A stretch of DNA of 64,000 bases from Aquaticitalea lipolytica (GTDB lineage Bacteria > Bacteroidota > Bacteroidia > Flavobacteriales > Flavobacteriaceae): NCBI RefSeq assembly GCF_014641635.1, contig NZ_BMIC01000001.1, forward strand, positions 1,308,641 to 1,372,640. Reading direction: 5' to 3'. A program made the position numbers and the translations under genes. Every line of letters starts with the position of its first letter. Position 1 is the first letter of the stretch. Under the pieces are notes generated by a model. The model was not told the origin of the DNA, made no database searches, and worked only from the letters and a program-made list of their open reading frames with translations. This document shows, in pieces, positions 23,804 through 54,367 of this stretch.

Positions 23804-23811
23804 TATTTTTG
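23804..23811 (+). promoter_or_regulatory. Candidate -7 promoter element of feoAB
   Basis: TATTTTTG matches TAnnTTTG exactly, 27-34 bases before the feoA start. A TTA-type -33 sequence lies about 16 bases upstream. The transcription start would fall near 23816-23820, on top of the inverted repeat listed next. Confidence 0.5.
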
Positions 23812-23815
23812 CTTC

Positions 23816-23832
23816 TTTAAAATCAATCTAAA
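23816..23832. promoter_or_regulatory. Putative iron-responsive operator at feoAB start
   Basis: TTTAAA-ATCAA-TCTAAA is a 17-bp inverted repeat with one imperfect pair. It overlaps the predicted transcription start. It shares 14 consecutive bases (AATCAATCTAAATA and the following A) with the site upstream of the araC-hemH operon when that site is read on the minus strand. Binding by a Fur or DtxR-type metalloregulator is inferred from position and gene content. Confidence 0.5.
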
Positions 23833-23837
23833 TAAGC

Positions 23838-24071
23838 TTGGAAGTAACATTAGCACATCTTAAACGTGGAGAACGAGGAATAATCATTGATGTTTCGTCA
23901 ATTCATATTCCTTTAAAATTACTCGAAATGGGCTGTTTACCAGGCAATGAGGTAGAGCTTGTGCAAGTTGCTCCATTTGCTGACCCAATGTACCTAAATG
24001 TAAACGGAACGCATTTAGCCATAAGAAAAGAGACTGCTATTCATATTTTAATAGATATTATAAATGAGTAA
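23838..24071 (+). CDS. feoA: Ferrous iron transport protein A
   Basis: A 77-residue cytosolic SH3-like protein that assists FeoB in Fe2+ uptake. It begins with TTG (MEVTLAHLKRGERGIIID). The family pattern is clear: LLEMGCLPGNEVELVQVAPFADPMYLNVNGTHLAIRKETA. It overlaps feoB by 8 bases, indicating coupled translation. A palindromic operator candidate lies immediately upstream, so iron control is likely. Confidence 0.94.
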   Translation: MEVTLAHLKRGERGIIIDVSSIHIPLKLLEMGCLPGNEVELVQVAPFADPMYLNVNGTHLAIRKETAIHILIDIINE

Positions 24072-26163
24072 GCAGATTAATGTTGCCTTAATTGGAAATC
24101 CGAACACTGGAAAAACTTCAGTTTTTAATGCTTTAACAGGATTAAACCAAAAAGTTGGAAATTATCCTGGTATTACTGTCGAAAAAAAGGAAGGTATTTG
24201 CAAATTACCAAGAGGTGTTAAAGCTCACATAATTGATTTACCAGGAACTTATAGCCTTAATGCATCATCGCTTGATGAGAATGTAGTTATTGAACTTTTA
24301 CTAAATAAAAACGATAAAGATTTTCCTGATGTAGCTGTTGTTGTAAGTGATGTTGAAAACTTAAAACGCAACCTTTTACTGTTTACCCAAATTAAAGATT
24401 TAGAAATTCCTGTTATTCTTGTTATAAATATGGCAGATAGAATGATTAGAAAAGGAATTTCTTTAGATATTGATTATTTAGAACAGCAACTAAACACAAA
24501 AATTGCTCTAGTTAGTACTCGAAAAAGCAAAGGTATTGACGAACTAAAAGAATTAATTTCCAACTATAAAGAGTTGTCTGTTGAGCCATGTATGCATGCT
24601 TCAGAAATTGATAAAGATTATTTTGATGGCTTAAGAAAAGCATTCCCAAACCAATTATTGTACAAGCTTTGGCTGGTAATTACTCAAGATGTTAACTTCG
24701 GAAAAACTGATAGAAACGAAATAGATCCAGTTGCCAATTTTAAAACCAAATCTAAAGCCGATTTAAAACGTTTACAGCAAAAAGAAACTATTAAGCGATA
24801 TCAATTTATAAATGATACACTTAAAAAAGGTCAAACTATTGACTTAAATACAGCTACAGATTTACGTATTAAATTTGATAGAGTTCTAACACATAAAGTA
24901 TGGGGTTATGCCATTTTTCTAATCATATTACTTACAATTTTTCAAGCTATTTATGATTGGTCAAGTGTACCAATGGATTTTATCGATAGTGCATTTGCAT
25001 CATTAAGTGAATGGACTAAAAACGTGCTTCCAAGTGGTGCTTTTACAAATTTATTGGCTGAAGGTATTATTCCTGGGCTTGGTGGTATTGTTATTTTTAT
25101 ACCTCAAATCGCATTTTTATTTCTCTTTATTTCAGTTCTTGAAGAAAGTGGTTATATGAGTCGTGTTGTGTTTTTAATGGATAGAGGCATGCGTCGCTTT
25201 GGATTAAGTGGTAAAAGTGTTGTTCCTCTTATTTCAGGTACTGCTTGCGCTATTCCTGCAATTATGGCAACTCGTAATATAGAAAGTTGGAAAGAACGCC
25301 TTATTACTATTCTGGTAACACCTTTTACAACCTGTTCGGCAAGGCTTCCTGTATATTTAATAATTATATCTTTAGTAATACCTGAAGGAAGAATTTTCGG
25401 TTTGGGCTATCAAGCATTGACTTTGATGCTTTTGTATTTAATTGGGTTTGGAGCAGCCTTAATTTCGGCTATGATTTTAAATAAAGTGCTTAAAATAAAA
25501 AGCAAAACTTTTTTTGTGGTTGAAATGCCAAATTATAAATGGCCAATGCTTAAAAATGTTGCATTAACAGTTCTAGAAAAGACAAAGTCATTTGTTTTTG
25601 GTGCTGGAAAAATCATTTTGGCTATTTCAATTGTATTGTGGTTTTTGGCTTCTTATGGTCCTGGTGATGACTTTAATAAAGCTGAAGATATTGTAGCTAA
25701 AGAATATGCTTCTCAAAATTTATCAGAAGAAGAACTACAACAACATATTGCATCATACAAATTAGAACATTCATTTATTGGTATCACTGGTAGAGCTATC
25801 GAGCCAGCAATTAGACCTTTAGGTTATGATTGGAAAATAGGAATCGCTATAGTAAGTTCGTTTGCTGCTCGCGAAGTATTTGTGGGCACTTTAGCTACTA
25901 TTTATAGCGTAGGAAATGATGATGAAGATACTATTAAAAACAGAATGGCTGGAGAGGTAAATCCTATTTTAGGAGGCCCTTTATTTAACTTTGCCTCAGG
26001 TATATCATTGTTGCTATTTTATGCTTTTGCAATGCAATGTATGAGTACTTTAGCAATTGTAAAGCGAGAAACCAATAGCTGGAAATGGCCAATTTTGCAA
26101 TTAACTATTATGAGTGCTTTTGCATATATTGTTGCTTTAATTGCGTATCAGGTTTTAACATAA
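24064..26163 (+). CDS. feoB: Ferrous iron transporter FeoB
   Basis: A 699-residue inner-membrane Fe2+ importer with an N-terminal G domain. Motifs are G1 GNPNTGKT (residues 11-18), G3 DLPGT, and G4 as NMAD in the segment ILVINMADRMIRKG. The membrane part has two Gate regions, seen as VPLISGTACAIPAIMATRNIESWKERLITILVTPFTTCSARLP and later IVSSFAAREVFVGTLATIY, which carry the conserved cysteines and the pore segment. Length is slightly below the enteric protein (about 770). It is followed by the Cys-rich small protein 17 bases later. Confidence 0.96.
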   Translation: MSKQINVALIGNPNTGKTSVFNALTGLNQKVGNYPGITVEKKEGICKLPRGVKAHIIDLPGTYSLNASSLDENVVIELLLNKNDKDFPDVAVVVSDVENLKRNLLLFTQIKDLEIPVILVINMADRMIRKGISLDIDYLEQQLNTKIALVSTRKSKGIDELKELISNYKELSVEPCMHASEIDKDYFDGLRKAFPNQLLYKLWLVITQDVNFGKTDRNEIDPVANFKTKSKADLKRLQQKETIKRYQFINDTLKKGQTIDLNTATDLRIKFDRVLTHKVWGYAIFLIILLTIFQAIYDWSSVPMDFIDSAFASLSEWTKNVLPSGAFTNLLAEGIIPGLGGIVIFIPQIAFLFLFISVLEESGYMSRVVFLMDRGMRRFGLSGKSVVPLISGTACAIPAIMATRNIESWKERLITILVTPFTTCSARLPVYLIIISLVIPEGRIFGLGYQALTLMLLYLIGFGAALISAMILNKVLKIKSKTFFVVEMPNYKWPMLKNVALTVLEKTKSFVFGAGKIILAISIVLWFLASYGPGDDFNKAEDIVAKEYASQNLSEEELQQHIASYKLEHSFIGITGRAIEPAIRPLGYDWKIGIAIVSSFAAREVFVGTLATIYSVGNDDEDTIKNRMAGEVNPILGGPLFNFASGISLLLFYAFAMQCMSTLAIVKRETNSWKWPILQLTIMSAFAYIVALIAYQVLT

Positions 26164-30650: not shown

Positions 30651-30666
30651 TTTAAGTAAGCTTAAA
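30651..30666. promoter_or_regulatory. Putative metalloregulator operator, inverted repeat
   Basis: TTTAAGTAAGCTTAAA is a perfect 6-4-6 inverted repeat placed at the predicted transcription start, 22 bases before the regulator's ATG. The position suits repression by the DtxR-family protein encoded immediately downstream (autoregulation). No binding data are available. Confidence 0.55.
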
Positions 30667-30687: not shown

Positions 30688-31344
30688 ATGTCAGTAGCAA
30701 TTGAAAACTTTGTAAAGGCCATTTACAAAAACGACATACAAGATAATAATGACACCAAGCCTGGTAACATTGCCAAAAAGCTGGGTATTTCTAATGCTGC
30801 AGCAACAGATATGGCAAAGAAATTAGCGACAAAAGATTTGTTACATTATGAAAAATATCAAGCACTTCAGTTAACAGAAAAAGGCACAAAAATGGCACTA
30901 AATGTTGTGCGTAAACATCGCCTTTGGGAAGCTTTACTATTCAAAATGTTTGATATGAGCTTACATGAAATTCATCGTGAAGCTGAACTGTTAGAACATG
31001 AAACTTCAGATTTTTTGGCTAATAAAATAAGTGAGTATTTAGGAAATCCAAAATTTGATCCTCATGGAGACCCAATTCCAAATGCTGATGGCGAAATCAC
31101 TACTGAAGATATATCTATTGCTTTGTCACAATCTAAAGAAGGCAAAACATACATTATATCTAGATTAATGAGTGATGATAAAGAGTTTTTCGATTTCTGT
31201 GCACAAAATGGATTGAAATATGGAAACACTATTACTATTACAAAGCAATTCAGTAAAAACAAAATGACACAAATCTCAATTAATAATAACACTATTCTTC
31301 TTAATGAAGATTTTACAAACATTATCTATGTCAACGAAATTTAA
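30688..31344 (+). CDS. DtxR/MntR-family metal-dependent regulator
   Basis: A 218-residue metalloregulator. The N-terminal winged helix-turn-helix is residues 1-65 (NIAKKLGISNAAATDMAKKLATKDLLHYEKYQALQLTEKG). The helical dimerisation and metal domain follows (HRLWEALLFKMFDMSLHEIHREAELLEHETSDFL, with His and Glu ligands). A FeoA-type SH3 domain ends the protein from about residue 150. This three-domain form resembles DtxR/IdeR and TroR. It heads the TroABCD operon, whose permeases resemble manganese or zinc importers; Mn2+ or Fe2+ sensing is the likeliest role. Confidence 0.92.
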   Translation: MSVAIENFVKAIYKNDIQDNNDTKPGNIAKKLGISNAAATDMAKKLATKDLLHYEKYQALQLTEKGTKMALNVVRKHRLWEALLFKMFDMSLHEIHREAELLEHETSDFLANKISEYLGNPKFDPHGDPIPNADGEITTEDISIALSQSKEGKTYIISRLMSDDKEFFDFCAQNGLKYGNTITITKQFSKNKMTQISINNNTILLNEDFTNIIYVNEI

Positions 31345-50985: not shown

Positions 50986-52002
50986 TTAATTACTCCACTT
51001 TTTTATCCATTTTGCAAGTAAGGCTACCCATTCTTCATCATCATTTAGACAAGGAACAGTTGTAAATTCTTTTCCTCCCATTTCATGAAAAATTTCTTCA
51101 CCTTCCATAGCAATTTCTTCTAATGTTTCTAGACAATCACTAACAAATGCAGGTGTTGCAATTGCCATATTTTTTAAACCCTCTTTACCTAATCTCTCAA
51201 TAGTTCTGTCTGTATATGGAAGCAACCAAGGATCAAATCCTAATCTAGATTGAAACGATGAAGAGTAAGTGTCATCTTTTAAACTTAATTTTTTAGCCAC
51301 CAACCTAGTGACTTCTAAACATTGATGTCTGTAACAAAATTCATGAGCTGGTGAAGGTATTACACAGCAACTCCCATCAATTTTACAGTGTGATTTTGTA
51401 ATATCTCTTTTTCTAATATGTCGCTCAGGAACACCATGATATGAAAACAATAAGTGGTCGTAGTTTTTACCTTCAAGATTCTTTTTTATAGAGTTTGATA
51501 GCACTTCTATGTAATCATCATCATTATAAAAGGCAGGCAAATCTGAAATTTTTAAATCAGGAAAATGCTCTTTTCTTATGTCTTCAGCTAGAACTAAAAT
51601 AGTTTCAGTTGTTGCCATTGCAAATTGAGGGTATAGTGGAATTAAAAACACCTCGTCAACACCTTTATCAACTAGCTCTTGTAAACCTTTTTTAATTGTC
51701 ATACTTCCATATCGCATAGCTAATGCTACAGGAAAGTCTACTTGCTCTTGAACCTTACTTTTTAAACGTTCTGAAATTACTATTAAAGGAGAACCCTCTT
51801 CCCACCATATTTTTTTGTAAGCTGCCGCAGAAGCTTTTGGTCGAGTATTTAAAATAATTCCTTTAACTAATAGGTTTCTTGCCCACAATGGAACGTCAAT
51901 GACACGTTCATCCATTAAAAATTCGCCTAAATATTTTTTTACATCTTTTGGTTCAGGACTATCTGGTGAACCAAGATTTACTAATAATACGCCTTTACTC
52001 AT
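50986..52002 (-). CDS. hemH: Ferrochelatase
   Basis: A 338-residue enzyme that inserts Fe2+ into protoporphyrin IX, the last step of heme synthesis. Family motifs are VNLGSPDSPEPKDVKKYL at the N-terminus, FSYHGVPERHIRK near residue 195 (catalytic His) and SRLGFDPWLLPYTD further on, plus FVSDCLETLEEI. The length is normal. It is only 9 bases downstream of the AraC-family gene, on the same strand, so the two form an operon. Confidence 0.95.
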   Translation of the reverse strand: MSKGVLLVNLGSPDSPEPKDVKKYLGEFLMDERVIDVPLWARNLLVKGIILNTRPKASAAAYKKIWWEEGSPLIVISERLKSKVQEQVDFPVALAMRYGSMTIKKGLQELVDKGVDEVFLIPLYPQFAMATTETILVLAEDIRKEHFPDLKISDLPAFYNDDDYIEVLSNSIKKNLEGKNYDHLLFSYHGVPERHIRKRDITKSHCKIDGSCCVIPSPAHEFCYRHQCLEVTRLVAKKLSLKDDTYSSSFQSRLGFDPWLLPYTDRTIERLGKEGLKNMAIATPAFVSDCLETLEEIAMEGEEIFHEMGGKEFTTVPCLNDDEEWVALLAKWIKKWSN

Positions 52003-52011
52003 ATATATAAA

Positions 52012-52905
52012 TTATGATGTCAGTGACATTAAATATTTTTTTGGTGTTGTACCATATTTCTTTTTAAATGCTGCAATAAAATGACTTGATGTACTATAGC
52101 CAACTTTTAATCCAACTTCATTAACATTATGTTCGCCAGACTCTAATAATTTTCTAGCAACTTCCATTTTATAGTCAAACAAAAAACTAAACACTGAATC
52201 GCCATAAATTTGTTTAAAGCCTTCTTTTAGCTTTTTTAAATTTAATCCAATCTCATCAGCCAATTCTTGAAGACTTGGAGGCTCTGCCATGCGAGCAATA
52301 ATAATATCTTTAGCCTTCCTGATTTTTATCACATTAGTTTCATCAACCAAAAAAGGGCAATGCTCAATATTAGCATCTTCACTTCTATTAAAATACAAGC
52401 TTAAAAGTTCGTATGCCTTGCCTTTAAAGTATAGATTTTTAATTGACTGATTAAGATTATAGTGAATAAGTTGTGTAAGTACTATAGCCATTGAAGGCGA
52501 AATTTTTCCGTCTTTATAATACTTCTTATCCTTATTATCGTCACTTAAAAAGGTGATATAATCTGCTTCTTGTGAAAATAAGCTATGGAATTTTTTAATA
52601 GAAATTAATACAGAAACTAGCCATGAATTAGGATTTAGTTCTAAATGGATTGGTAAATCTCGTTGAGGATTATAAAGTAGTAATGAATTTTCTTCAAGAA
52701 TATCTAAAGCATAACGTCCTTCATTAAAAATAAATTTACTTGATCCCTTTAAACAAAAATGAAACTGAATAAAACTACTATCTATCGCTCTTTCAATGAC
52801 TTCTGTATAAATATTTTCATTTTGATAGGTTAATACAAAAAACCCATCATCAATTTTTGTTTCACTAAAAGTACCTCTAGCGACATTTTTTACATCTGAA
52901 TTCAT
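52012..52905 (-). CDS. AraC-family transcriptional regulator next to hemH
   Basis: A protein of about 297 residues. The C-terminal HTH pair is visible (LQELADEIGLNLKKLKEGFKQIYGDS and the second NVNEVGLKVGYSTSSHFIAAFKKKYGTTPKKYL). The N-terminal 190 residues form a ligand or dimerisation domain. The frame is open to a TTG at 52944, but that region is the operator-like palindrome, so ATG 52905 is chosen. It is coupled with hemH and diverges from hemA, so it is a likely regulator of heme synthesis; ligand unknown. Confidence 0.88.
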   Translation of the reverse strand: MNSDVKNVARGTFSETKIDDGFFVLTYQNENIYTEVIERAIDSSFIQFHFCLKGSSKFIFNEGRYALDILEENSLLLYNPQRDLPIHLELNPNSWLVSVLISIKKFHSLFSQEADYITFLSDDNKDKKYYKDGKISPSMAIVLTQLIHYNLNQSIKNLYFKGKAYELLSLYFNRSEDANIEHCPFLVDETNVIKIRKAKDIIIARMAEPPSLQELADEIGLNLKKLKEGFKQIYGDSVFSFLFDYKMEVARKLLESGEHNVNEVGLKVGYSTSSHFIAAFKKKYGTTPKKYLMSLTS

Positions 52906-52924
52906 AAGAATATTTTTGCTGTTA

Positions 52925-52941
52925 TTTAGATTGATTCTAAA
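52925..52941. promoter_or_regulatory. Putative operator TTTAGA-N5-TCTAAA upstream of araC-hemH
   Basis: TTTAGATTGATTCTAAA is a 17-bp inverted repeat with perfect 6-bp arms, 20 bases before the araC ATG. A one-mismatch version lies at the feoA start. A metalloregulator of the Fur or DtxR class is the likely binder, by inference. Confidence 0.55.
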
Positions 52942-52971
52942 CAAATGTTCTCAAAAGCATTACTATACCTG

Positions 52972-52979
52972 CAAAAGTA
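52972..52979 (-). promoter_or_regulatory. Candidate -7 promoter element of araC-hemH
   Basis: Read on the minus strand, TACTTTTG fits TAnnTTTG. Transcription would start near 52965, upstream of the TTTAGA repeat, and the element overlaps the next palindrome. A clear -33 is lacking. Confidence 0.42.
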
Positions 52980-52993
52980 TGATATTTATCATA
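52978..52993. promoter_or_regulatory. Perfect palindrome TATGATA-TT-TATCATA, FNR/CRP-like
   Basis: TATGATATTTATCATA has perfect 7-bp arms and a 2-base centre; the flanking AAAA and TTTT extend pairing after one mismatch. Its core TGAT-N4-ATCA resembles the FNR/CRP-family box. It overlaps the predicted araC promoter and is 112 bases before hemA. The binder is unknown. Confidence 0.5.
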
Positions 52994-53073
52994 GTTTTTA
53001 AAAATAAACATATAAAAAACCAATAGCGACACTTAAAGTTCTTTTAGCGTTACTTTTTTACGATTAACCTACA

Positions 53074-53081
53074 TATTTTTG
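53074..53081 (+). promoter_or_regulatory. Candidate -7 promoter element of the hemA operon
   Basis: TATTTTTG matches TAnnTTTG exactly, 24-31 bases before the hemA ATG. A TTAC at 53050-53053, 20 bases upstream, could act as an imperfect -33. Confidence 0.5.
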
Positions 53082-53104: not shown

Positions 53105-54367
53105 ATGGAGCAATATCATATTTCTAAAGGAACTTACTTTTATGCCATTGGTTTAAGCTATAAAAAGGCTGATGCCGAGATAAGAGGTCATTTTAGTTTA
53201 GACGAAAATGCTAAGCTAGCACTACTAAAACAAGCCAAAGAAAGCAATATTGAAAGTTTATTGGTTACCTCTACTTGTAACAGAACAGAACTTTATGGCT
53301 TTGCTGAGCATCCTTACCAACTTATAAAACTGCTTTGTGATAACACAAAAGGAACAGTTGAAGAATTCCAAGAAGTAGCTTATATATATAAAAACAGAGA
53401 GGCAATTGCACACATGTTTAGAGTTGGCTCTGGATTGGATAGCCAAATTTTAGGTGACTTTGAAATTATAAGTCAGCTAAAAAACAGTGCAAGAGTTTCA
53501 AAAAAGTTTGCTTTATTAAATCCGTTTATCGAACGCTTAGTAAACTCAGTAATACAAGCTAGCAAGCGAATAAAGACTGAAACAAATATATCATCAGGAG
53601 CAACATCTGTATCTTTTGCTTCAGTTCAATACATTTTGAATACTGTAGAAGATGTTACCAACAAAAATATTTTGCTTTTCGGAACAGGAAAAATAGGCAG
53701 AAATACTTGTGAAAATTTGGTAAAACACACCAAAAACGAACATATTACTCTTATAAATAGAACCAAAGATAAAGCTGAGGCTATTGCTGGAAAGTTTAAC
53801 CTGTTGGTTAAAGACTATTCAAATCTTCAAGAAGAAATTAATAACTCTGATATATTAATTGTTGCTACTGGAGCACAAAATCCAACTGTTGACAAACATT
53901 GTATACAAACTAAAAAACCGTTGTTAATTTTAGATTTATCTATACCAAAAAATGTTAATGATAATGTTACCGAATTAGATAATGTATCTCTAATTCATTT
54001 GGACGATTTATCTCAAATTACAGATAAAACTTTAGAAAAACGTAAACAACATATTCCTGTTGCAGAGCAAATTATTAAAGAAGTAAACACCGAATTTAAT
54101 GATTGGTTAGAAACCAGAAAATTTGCTCCAACTATTAAAGCTTTAAAGCTAAAGTTAAATGATTTTAAAATTGCCGAATTAGATACTCAACGCAAAAAAA
54201 TCAGTAATTTTAACGAAGAACAGGCAGAAATAATTAGTAATAATATCATTCAAAAAATTACAAATCACTTTGCTCATCATTTAAAAGATGACGATATTTC
54301 TACTGACGAAAGTCTTGAACTCATAAAAAAAGTGTTTCAATTAGAAACAACTACAAAGCATGTCTAA
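53105..54367 (+). CDS. hemA: Glutamyl-tRNA reductase
   Basis: A 420-residue enzyme that reduces glutamyl-tRNA to glutamate-1-semialdehyde, the first committed step of heme synthesis by the C5 route. The catalytic cysteine is Cys58 in TSTCNRTELYGF. The NADPH-binding Rossmann region is NILLFGTGKIGRNTCENL near residue 195. A C-terminal helical dimerisation region follows. It heads the main heme operon and overlaps hemCD by 8 bases. HemL, the next enzyme, is not in the window. Confidence 0.95.
   Translation: MEQYHISKGTYFYAIGLSYKKADAEIRGHFSLDENAKLALLKQAKESNIESLLVTSTCNRTELYGFAEHPYQLIKLLCDNTKGTVEEFQEVAYIYKNREAIAHMFRVGSGLDSQILGDFEIISQLKNSARVSKKFALLNPFIERLVNSVIQASKRIKTETNISSGATSVSFASVQYILNTVEDVTNKNILLFGTGKIGRNTCENLVKHTKNEHITLINRTKDKAEAIAGKFNLLVKDYSNLQEEINNSDILIVATGAQNPTVDKHCIQTKKPLLILDLSIPKNVNDNVTELDNVSLIHLDDLSQITDKTLEKRKQHIPVAEQIIKEVNTEFNDWLETRKFAPTIKALKLKLNDFKIAELDTQRKKISNFNEEQAEIISNNIIQKITNHFAHHLKDDDISTDESLELIKKVFQLETTTKHV

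Follow-up and report, generated by a model that had tools for sequence, protein, structure and literature searches.

Does one iron-responsive repressor govern both the import of ferrous iron and the last step of heme synthesis in Aquaticitalea lipolytica? The question is raised by a 64,000-nucleotide stretch of its genome (the window), for which an earlier note had described a repeat, TTTAGA-N5-TCTAAA, upstream of the araC-hemH operon and a copy with one changed arm base, TTTAAA-N5-TCTAAA, at feoAB. The first of these is found exactly at 52925–52941, and the longer 20-base pattern is matched at 52922–52941 without a mismatch. The feoAB copy has the described sequence at 23816–23832, but it ends before the TTG codon at 23838 and does not overlap the coding start, as had been thought. 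AATCAATCTAAATAA is indeed common to the two sites, each read on the strand of the gene that it precedes. Three strand-matches occur in the window, compared with 0.36 ± 0.59 over 100 shuffles, none of which reached three, and in a window-wide position-weight scan (matrix built from 77 araC loci) a score of at least 8 is attained at two places, the araC-hemH and feoAB sites, in agreement with the statement that the window holds no third copy.

Table 1. Features of the two operons and their control regions in the window; the -7 elements of araC-hemH, feoAB, and hemA were assigned by what we take to be the consensus, TAnnTTTG
Feature	Position	Strand	Basis or remark
Predicted Fur box of araC-hemH, TTTAGAATCAATCTAAATAA	52922..52941	-	Pattern match; 50/56 family genomes
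Predicted Fur box of feoAB, TTTAAAATCAATCTAAATAA	23816..23835	+	30/30 plus 22/27 family genomes
Presumed -7 element of araC-hemH, TACTTTTG	52972..52979	-	30 nt upstream of box
Presumed -7 element of feoAB, TATTTTTG	23804..23811	+	4 nt upstream of box
Presumed -7 element of hemA, TATTTTTG	53074..53081	+	By consensus
16-bp palindrome, candidate FNR-type operator; TATGATAAATATCATA on araC strand	52978..52993	.	Pattern in relatives
Direct repeat AACGCT...GTCGCT, 21-bp period, probable AraC operator	53025..53051	-	Conserved
araC, AraC-family regulator, invariant Cys183-Pro184	52012..52905	-	
hemH, ferrochelatase	50986..52002	-	TIGR00109 above cut-off
hemA, glutamyl-tRNA reductase, divergent from araC	53105..54367	+	TIGR01035 above cut-off
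feoA, TTG start	23838..24071	+	Named by sequence and place
feoB	24064..26163	+	TIGR00437 above cut-off
DtxR/MntR-type gene, FeoA domain in product	30688-31344		~4.5 kb beyond feoB
TTTAAG-N4-CTTAAA, likely operator of DtxR/MntR-type gene	30651-30666		After that gene's -7 element

With two mismatches permitted, the window holds 12 matches to the arms alone where 16.8 would be expected, and because there is no excess at this level the informative motif has to be longer, namely TTTARAAYNAATCTAAATAA. In the whole genome (3.14 Mb in 36 contigs, 99.99% complete), loose-arm matches number 39 per strand against 22 in the control, and as these matches are mostly TTTAAA...TTTAAA, the arms-only pattern was discarded as uninformative. 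Judged from these counts, the signal is carried by the inner bases and the TAA tail. Weak sites of the 20-base form are not above chance either: with up to three mismatches, there are 37 matches in this genome and 34 in the reversed control, so that weight can be given here only to the six best sites (i.e., those with at most two mismatches).

Conservation and position of the box

For comparison within the family, we used a set of 60 genomes, one per genus. An AraC match at E 1e-20 is present in 58 of them, and exclusion of G020 (partial, distant) and G007 (no upstream sequence available) leaves 56, in 50 of which a box scoring at least 13 lies upstream of araC. The six loci without a good box are those of G006, G018, G022, G028, G034, and G055; weak remnants are seen in G018 (score 5.4) and G034 (3.2), the best coding-sequence control being 2.7. 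Of the 50 boxes, 41 are in forward orientation, and those of G002, G014, and G044, oriented as for hemA, lie 178–224 nt upstream of where araC starts in the alignment. Among the 44 genomes with a forward box in the range examined, pairwise identity within it is 84.9%, versus 34%–48% in the adjoining 20-nt blocks. In a second sample, of 80 named loci, araC has a box no more than 90 nt upstream and with no more than one mismatch in the arms in 77, the exceptions being L075, L091, and L093. The nearest named AraC relatives belong to the Flavobacteriaceae (Bizionia, Gelidibacter, and Confluentibacter, among others). Three metagenome-assembled genomes, titled Deltaproteobacteria, Chlorobiota, and Rhodobacteraceae (L053, L075, and L086), carry a flavobacterial araC-hemH locus; these are probably mis-binned contigs, and L053 matches L055 in box and leader.

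The feoAB site is kept as widely. FeoB is encoded in 57 of the 60 family genomes (G003, G038, and G039 give only weak matches), and a box is present in 52 of the 57. In the 30 genomes closest to A. lipolytica it lies a few bases past the -7 element in every case, as the same 20-mer in 24, and the A that had been read as a changed arm base is present in all 30. In 22 of the remaining 27 genomes the box scores at least 11 (the highest coding-sequence control being 6.4), three of these boxes, in G002, G009, and G057, being on the opposite strand; G014, G020, G051, G053, and G058 have no good box. Pairwise identity over the 30 closest loci is 96.6% in the box and 40%–69% in the adjoining 20-nt blocks. 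The comparison with related genomes thus finds the box kept at both operons while its flanks have diverged. Chance together with shared ancestry of A+T-rich DNA would account for loose arm matches that are about as frequent as in shuffles and for weak sites in this genome that are about as frequent as in the control, but not for a box identity of 85%–97% between flanks of 34%–69%, nor for the near absence of full-box matches in the reversed-pattern controls, and we regard this explanation as practically negligible.

At feoAB, the predicted transcription start falls inside the box, which has the -7 element (23804–23811) on one side and the TTG start (23838) on the other. At araC, the 20-base box ends 16 nt upstream of the ATG at 52905, inside the predicted leader. 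Its spacing from the -7 element is exactly 30 nt in 63 of the 78 loci and 29–33 nt in 69, whereas its distance to the aligned AraC start varies between 26 and 53 nt. The spacer itself (52942–52971, with its counterparts in relatives) thus has the same length in those 63 loci, although it varies in much of its sequence. From these positions, at a start site or in an early leader, a bound protein could block initiation or early elongation.

The two arms can pair with each other, and a repeat so placed might instead act in the RNA, as a 5'-leader hairpin; at both feoA and araC the message starts close to the box or before it, and one orientation prevails (the 41 of 50 at araC). Both orientations do occur, however, and the fixed distance is that to the -7 element and not that to the aligned AraC start. 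Further, in G032 and G044 the feo box comes before the -7 element, as it does in G030 (there further off, 629 nt before feoB), so that it is not always transcribed; at such sites a DNA operator is possible and an RNA element is not, and on this ground the hairpin was rejected as extremely improbable.

Genes that carry the box

Loose arms in the window and weak sites in the genome are about as frequent as in controls, but matches to the full box outnumber those in its reversed-pattern controls. Exact TTTAGAAYNNNTCTAAATAA has 39 matches in the 60 family genomes, against 2 in the reversed-pattern controls, and among the matches listed 27 of 30 loci are the araC/hemA intergenic region, that of A. 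lipolytica included. With one mismatch permitted, 15 relatives yield 104 matches versus 12 in the control. In the class Bacteroidia, exact TTTAGAAYNNNTCTAAATAA is found in 82 of 197 genomes (168 strand-matches, none in the reversed control); by these counts the box is enriched across the class.

The earlier note had proposed a test for enrichment near iron genes; in A. lipolytica, genes of iron uptake and iron use are among those preceded by a box, weak sites being about as frequent as in the control. Sites with two mismatches precede the Fe-S carrier gene apbC/mrp, a porin gene (two sites), and a TonB receptor/DUF6607 pair; iscA-sufB is preceded by a box with three mismatches. At the class level, we annotated 29 new loci from among the matches listed, which are no random sample. 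In 16 of these the box has an iron, Fe-S, or heme gene no more than 330 nt away, to the left or to the right: IscA or SufB in seven, a TonB receptor in three, a heme oxygenase in two (one assigned by its likeness to the other, no NCBIfam model having matched), and a porin, succinate dehydrogenase (SDH) cytochrome b, HemA, and an HmuY-like protein in one each. The other 13 have no such gene, or no gene was picked. By sequence, a box thus stands at more genes than those of the two operons first described. In other genera, multiheme cytochrome c genes adjoin a Fur-type box at L318, L346, and L377. Genes for DUF4856 proteins stand beside at least one box at L333, L356, and L382; DUF4856 is possibly an unrecognised iron-related family.

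The protein that binds the box

The repeat is very probably a Fur box, through which iron-loaded Fur would repress both feoAB and araC-hemH. The earlier proposal of an iron-responsive repressor acting on both operons gains support from identity with a published Fur box, from conservation in about 50 genera, and from the position of the sites relative to promoter and start site. Each of the 60 family genomes encodes one strong Fur ortholog (61%–95% identity outside A. lipolytica itself, where the gene adjoins purA and, as identified by eye, a RelA/SpoT-like gene). The nearest solved relatives of this protein are Fur proteins (3e-21), with PerR at 2e-13, and the NCBIfam models for Fur (6e-19), PerR (2e-16), and Irr (2e-10) score in the same order, none at its cut-off.

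Fur and DtxR had both been left open as binders; the data favour Fur. The DtxR/MntR-family protein of Table 1 commends itself in that it has a FeoA domain, belongs to the iron/manganese-type repressors, and is encoded close to feoB, and some DtxR-type boxes are similar A+T-rich palindromes. However, the promoter of its own gene lacks the box and has TTTAAG-N4-CTTAAA instead in 14 of 14 orthologs examined, and on this separate operator the protein was rejected as the binder. A close ortholog (at least 66%) is present in 14 of the 60 family genomes and missing from 46, three genomes (G018, G032, and G051) have no DtxR-type match and yet keep a box at feo or araC, and the nearest NCBIfam model, MntR, falls below its cut-off. 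Repression by this protein through the box is very unlikely. Fur, in turn, would bind without need of AraC, since G032 keeps its feo box and has no AraC match.

In Riemerella anatipestifer, also of the order Flavobacteriales, the Fur box is reported to be a 19-bp palindrome, ATTTAGAATTATTCTAAAT, within ~100 bp of start codons, and purified Fur is reported to bind four chosen promoters (PMC5609570) and rhuB (PMC10986502); feoAB is described there as iron- and Fur-regulated and as having a Fur box (PMC10434265). The palindrome is the same as that in A. lipolytica, and feoAB is a target there and a predicted one here (PMC5609570, PMC10434265). In the 2017 table, several boxes fit poorly, including that of sprT, one of the four shifted promoters, whose shift was reported with up to 10 µg Fur (PMC5609570); a different, E. 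coli-like Fur box has been quoted in a later paper on the same species (PMC7976709). SDH of R. anatipestifer is reported to decrease under iron restriction in the wild type and the fur mutant alike, so that a box at SDH need not signal Fur control. Two differences stand out. The Fur targets described in the passages and table of that study include no hemH, araC, or hemA (PMC5609570), and the main text of the R. anatipestifer iron papers searched makes no mention of hemH, ferrochelatase, or AraC, whereas in the present family nearly all perfect copies lie at araC-hemH (the 27 of 30 among the matches listed). Also, the box here is one-sided: the TCTAAATAA half is nearly invariant and the other half less so, the araC site being near-palindromic and the feo site and the TCTAAATAA tail asymmetric, for which a symmetric Fur dimer offers no explanation.

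A different member of the Fur family might bind the box, either a second one or one whose iron logic is reversed, as in Irr. A second Fur-family gene (L127) is present in A. lipolytica, the genes with a box include iron-using ones, and the Irr boxes of alphaproteobacteria, TTTAGAA-N3-TTCTAAA, look alike. Yet L127 lies between genes that by eye resemble metal efflux genes and scores 39 bits versus 93 for the conserved Fur; the conserved protein scores higher with Fur models than with PerR and well above Irr, although no cut-off is reached; and the reports on R. anatipestifer describe repression by iron and Fur (PMC10434265, PMC10986502). We give this alternative as little credence as DtxR/MntR. 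Irr is a Fur-superfamily protein that likewise ties iron to heme synthesis in some species, but it represses at low iron (PMC3413700), whereas the protein here scores as Fur and the flavobacterial reports are of repression by iron.

We infer that A. lipolytica's own Fur most likely binds the two sites, that it represses, and that iron is the signal. Under iron-replete conditions, iron-loaded Fur would block transcription by sitting on TTTARAAYNAATCTAAATAA, which at feoAB lies over the region of the start site and at araC-hemH early in the leader; under iron-poor conditions, both operons would be released, giving Fe2+ import, more of the AraC regulator, and, where the operon includes hemH, more ferrochelatase. 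Iron repression of ferrochelatase is counter-intuitive. In Bacillus thuringiensis, Fur is reported to bind the hemH1 and hemH2 promoters, likewise linking iron to the last heme step, although this is another phylum and Fur activates one hemH and represses the other (PMC11988928). In Bizionia argentinensis, a related flavobacterium, the iron regulator MliR is described, which unlike Fur is a MerR-like activator; that 2022 study calls its own species' Fur untested (PMC9478572). In the literature found, the flavobacterial Fur regulon is described mainly for one duck pathogen.

The araC/hemA control region

The box belongs to araC first, and hemH is its frequent but inconstant partner. hemA is divergent from araC in 80 of 80 loci. 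A search of the ~3 kb behind araC finds hemH, on the same strand, in 62 of them, no more than 105 nt away in 33, and does not find it in 18. Two further elements recur in the 63 loci with 30-nt spacing. The palindrome ATGAYAAATRTCAT adjoins the araC -7 element in most of them, and in A. lipolytica a perfect 16-bp copy, TATGATATTTATCATA, abuts that element at 52978–52993. This pattern has 30 matches in 23 of the 60 genomes, compared with 5 in the control: 10 at araC/hemA, three at genes for an Fnr-like regulator and a CcoI-like ATPase, two at HemN, one at CcoN, and 14 elsewhere. The matches at the Fnr-like/CcoI-like, HemN, and CcoN genes suggest that the palindrome is an FNR-type oxygen operator.

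Further upstream there is a block with the direct repeat AACGCT-N15-RTCGNT, which at 53025–53051 is nearly invariant and lies between the hemA and araC promoters. The repeat has at most six mismatches to the near-relative consensus in 47 of 56 genera, and at least seven in every coding control; of 413 loci examined, 91 have the 25-base pattern exactly, and every one of these is an araC/hemA locus. AraC-family operators usually have a 21-bp period, and this repeat is probably the operator of AraC itself.

The predicted AraC model (mean pLDDT 85.9, pTM 0.57) has a beta-rich N-domain, which we take for a cupin, and an AraC-type helix-turn-helix. A fold search returned ToxT and Rns first, with a whole-chain TM of ~0.3, and AraC-type DNA-binding domains with a target TM of 0.77–0.86; these AraC-type matches support the fold and point to no ligand. 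Cys183-Pro184, in a low-confidence linker of the model, is invariant in 42 of 42 chosen orthologs and missing at this place in 10 of 10 paralogs compared. We take this Cys-Pro to be a heme-regulatory-type motif, and the pattern, together with the gene neighbours, leads us to the hypothesis that AraC may sense heme.

It is possible, although we would sooner expect otherwise, that a switch devoted to heme synthesis receives its iron signal through the box. AraC, sensing heme through Cys-Pro, would act at the 21-bp direct repeat to set both hemA and its own operon, and the amount of AraC would be set by Fur in response to iron and by an FNR-type protein in response to oxygen. We recognised no description of an araC/hemA/hemH switch in the literature searched, a scope outside which most subscription journals lie.

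These results give a predicted Fur box usable across a class, with candidate targets in feo, SUF, an Fe-S carrier, SDH, heme oxygenase, and hemA/araC-hemH. What stands out most is that araC, hemA, and hemH have a conserved control region with three predicted inputs. The box is kept in most genera compared, and marine flavobacteria appear to tie heme making to iron supply; if the proposed switch is true, a single promoter region would let flavobacteria adjust the flow of porphyrins to iron, heme, and oxygen.
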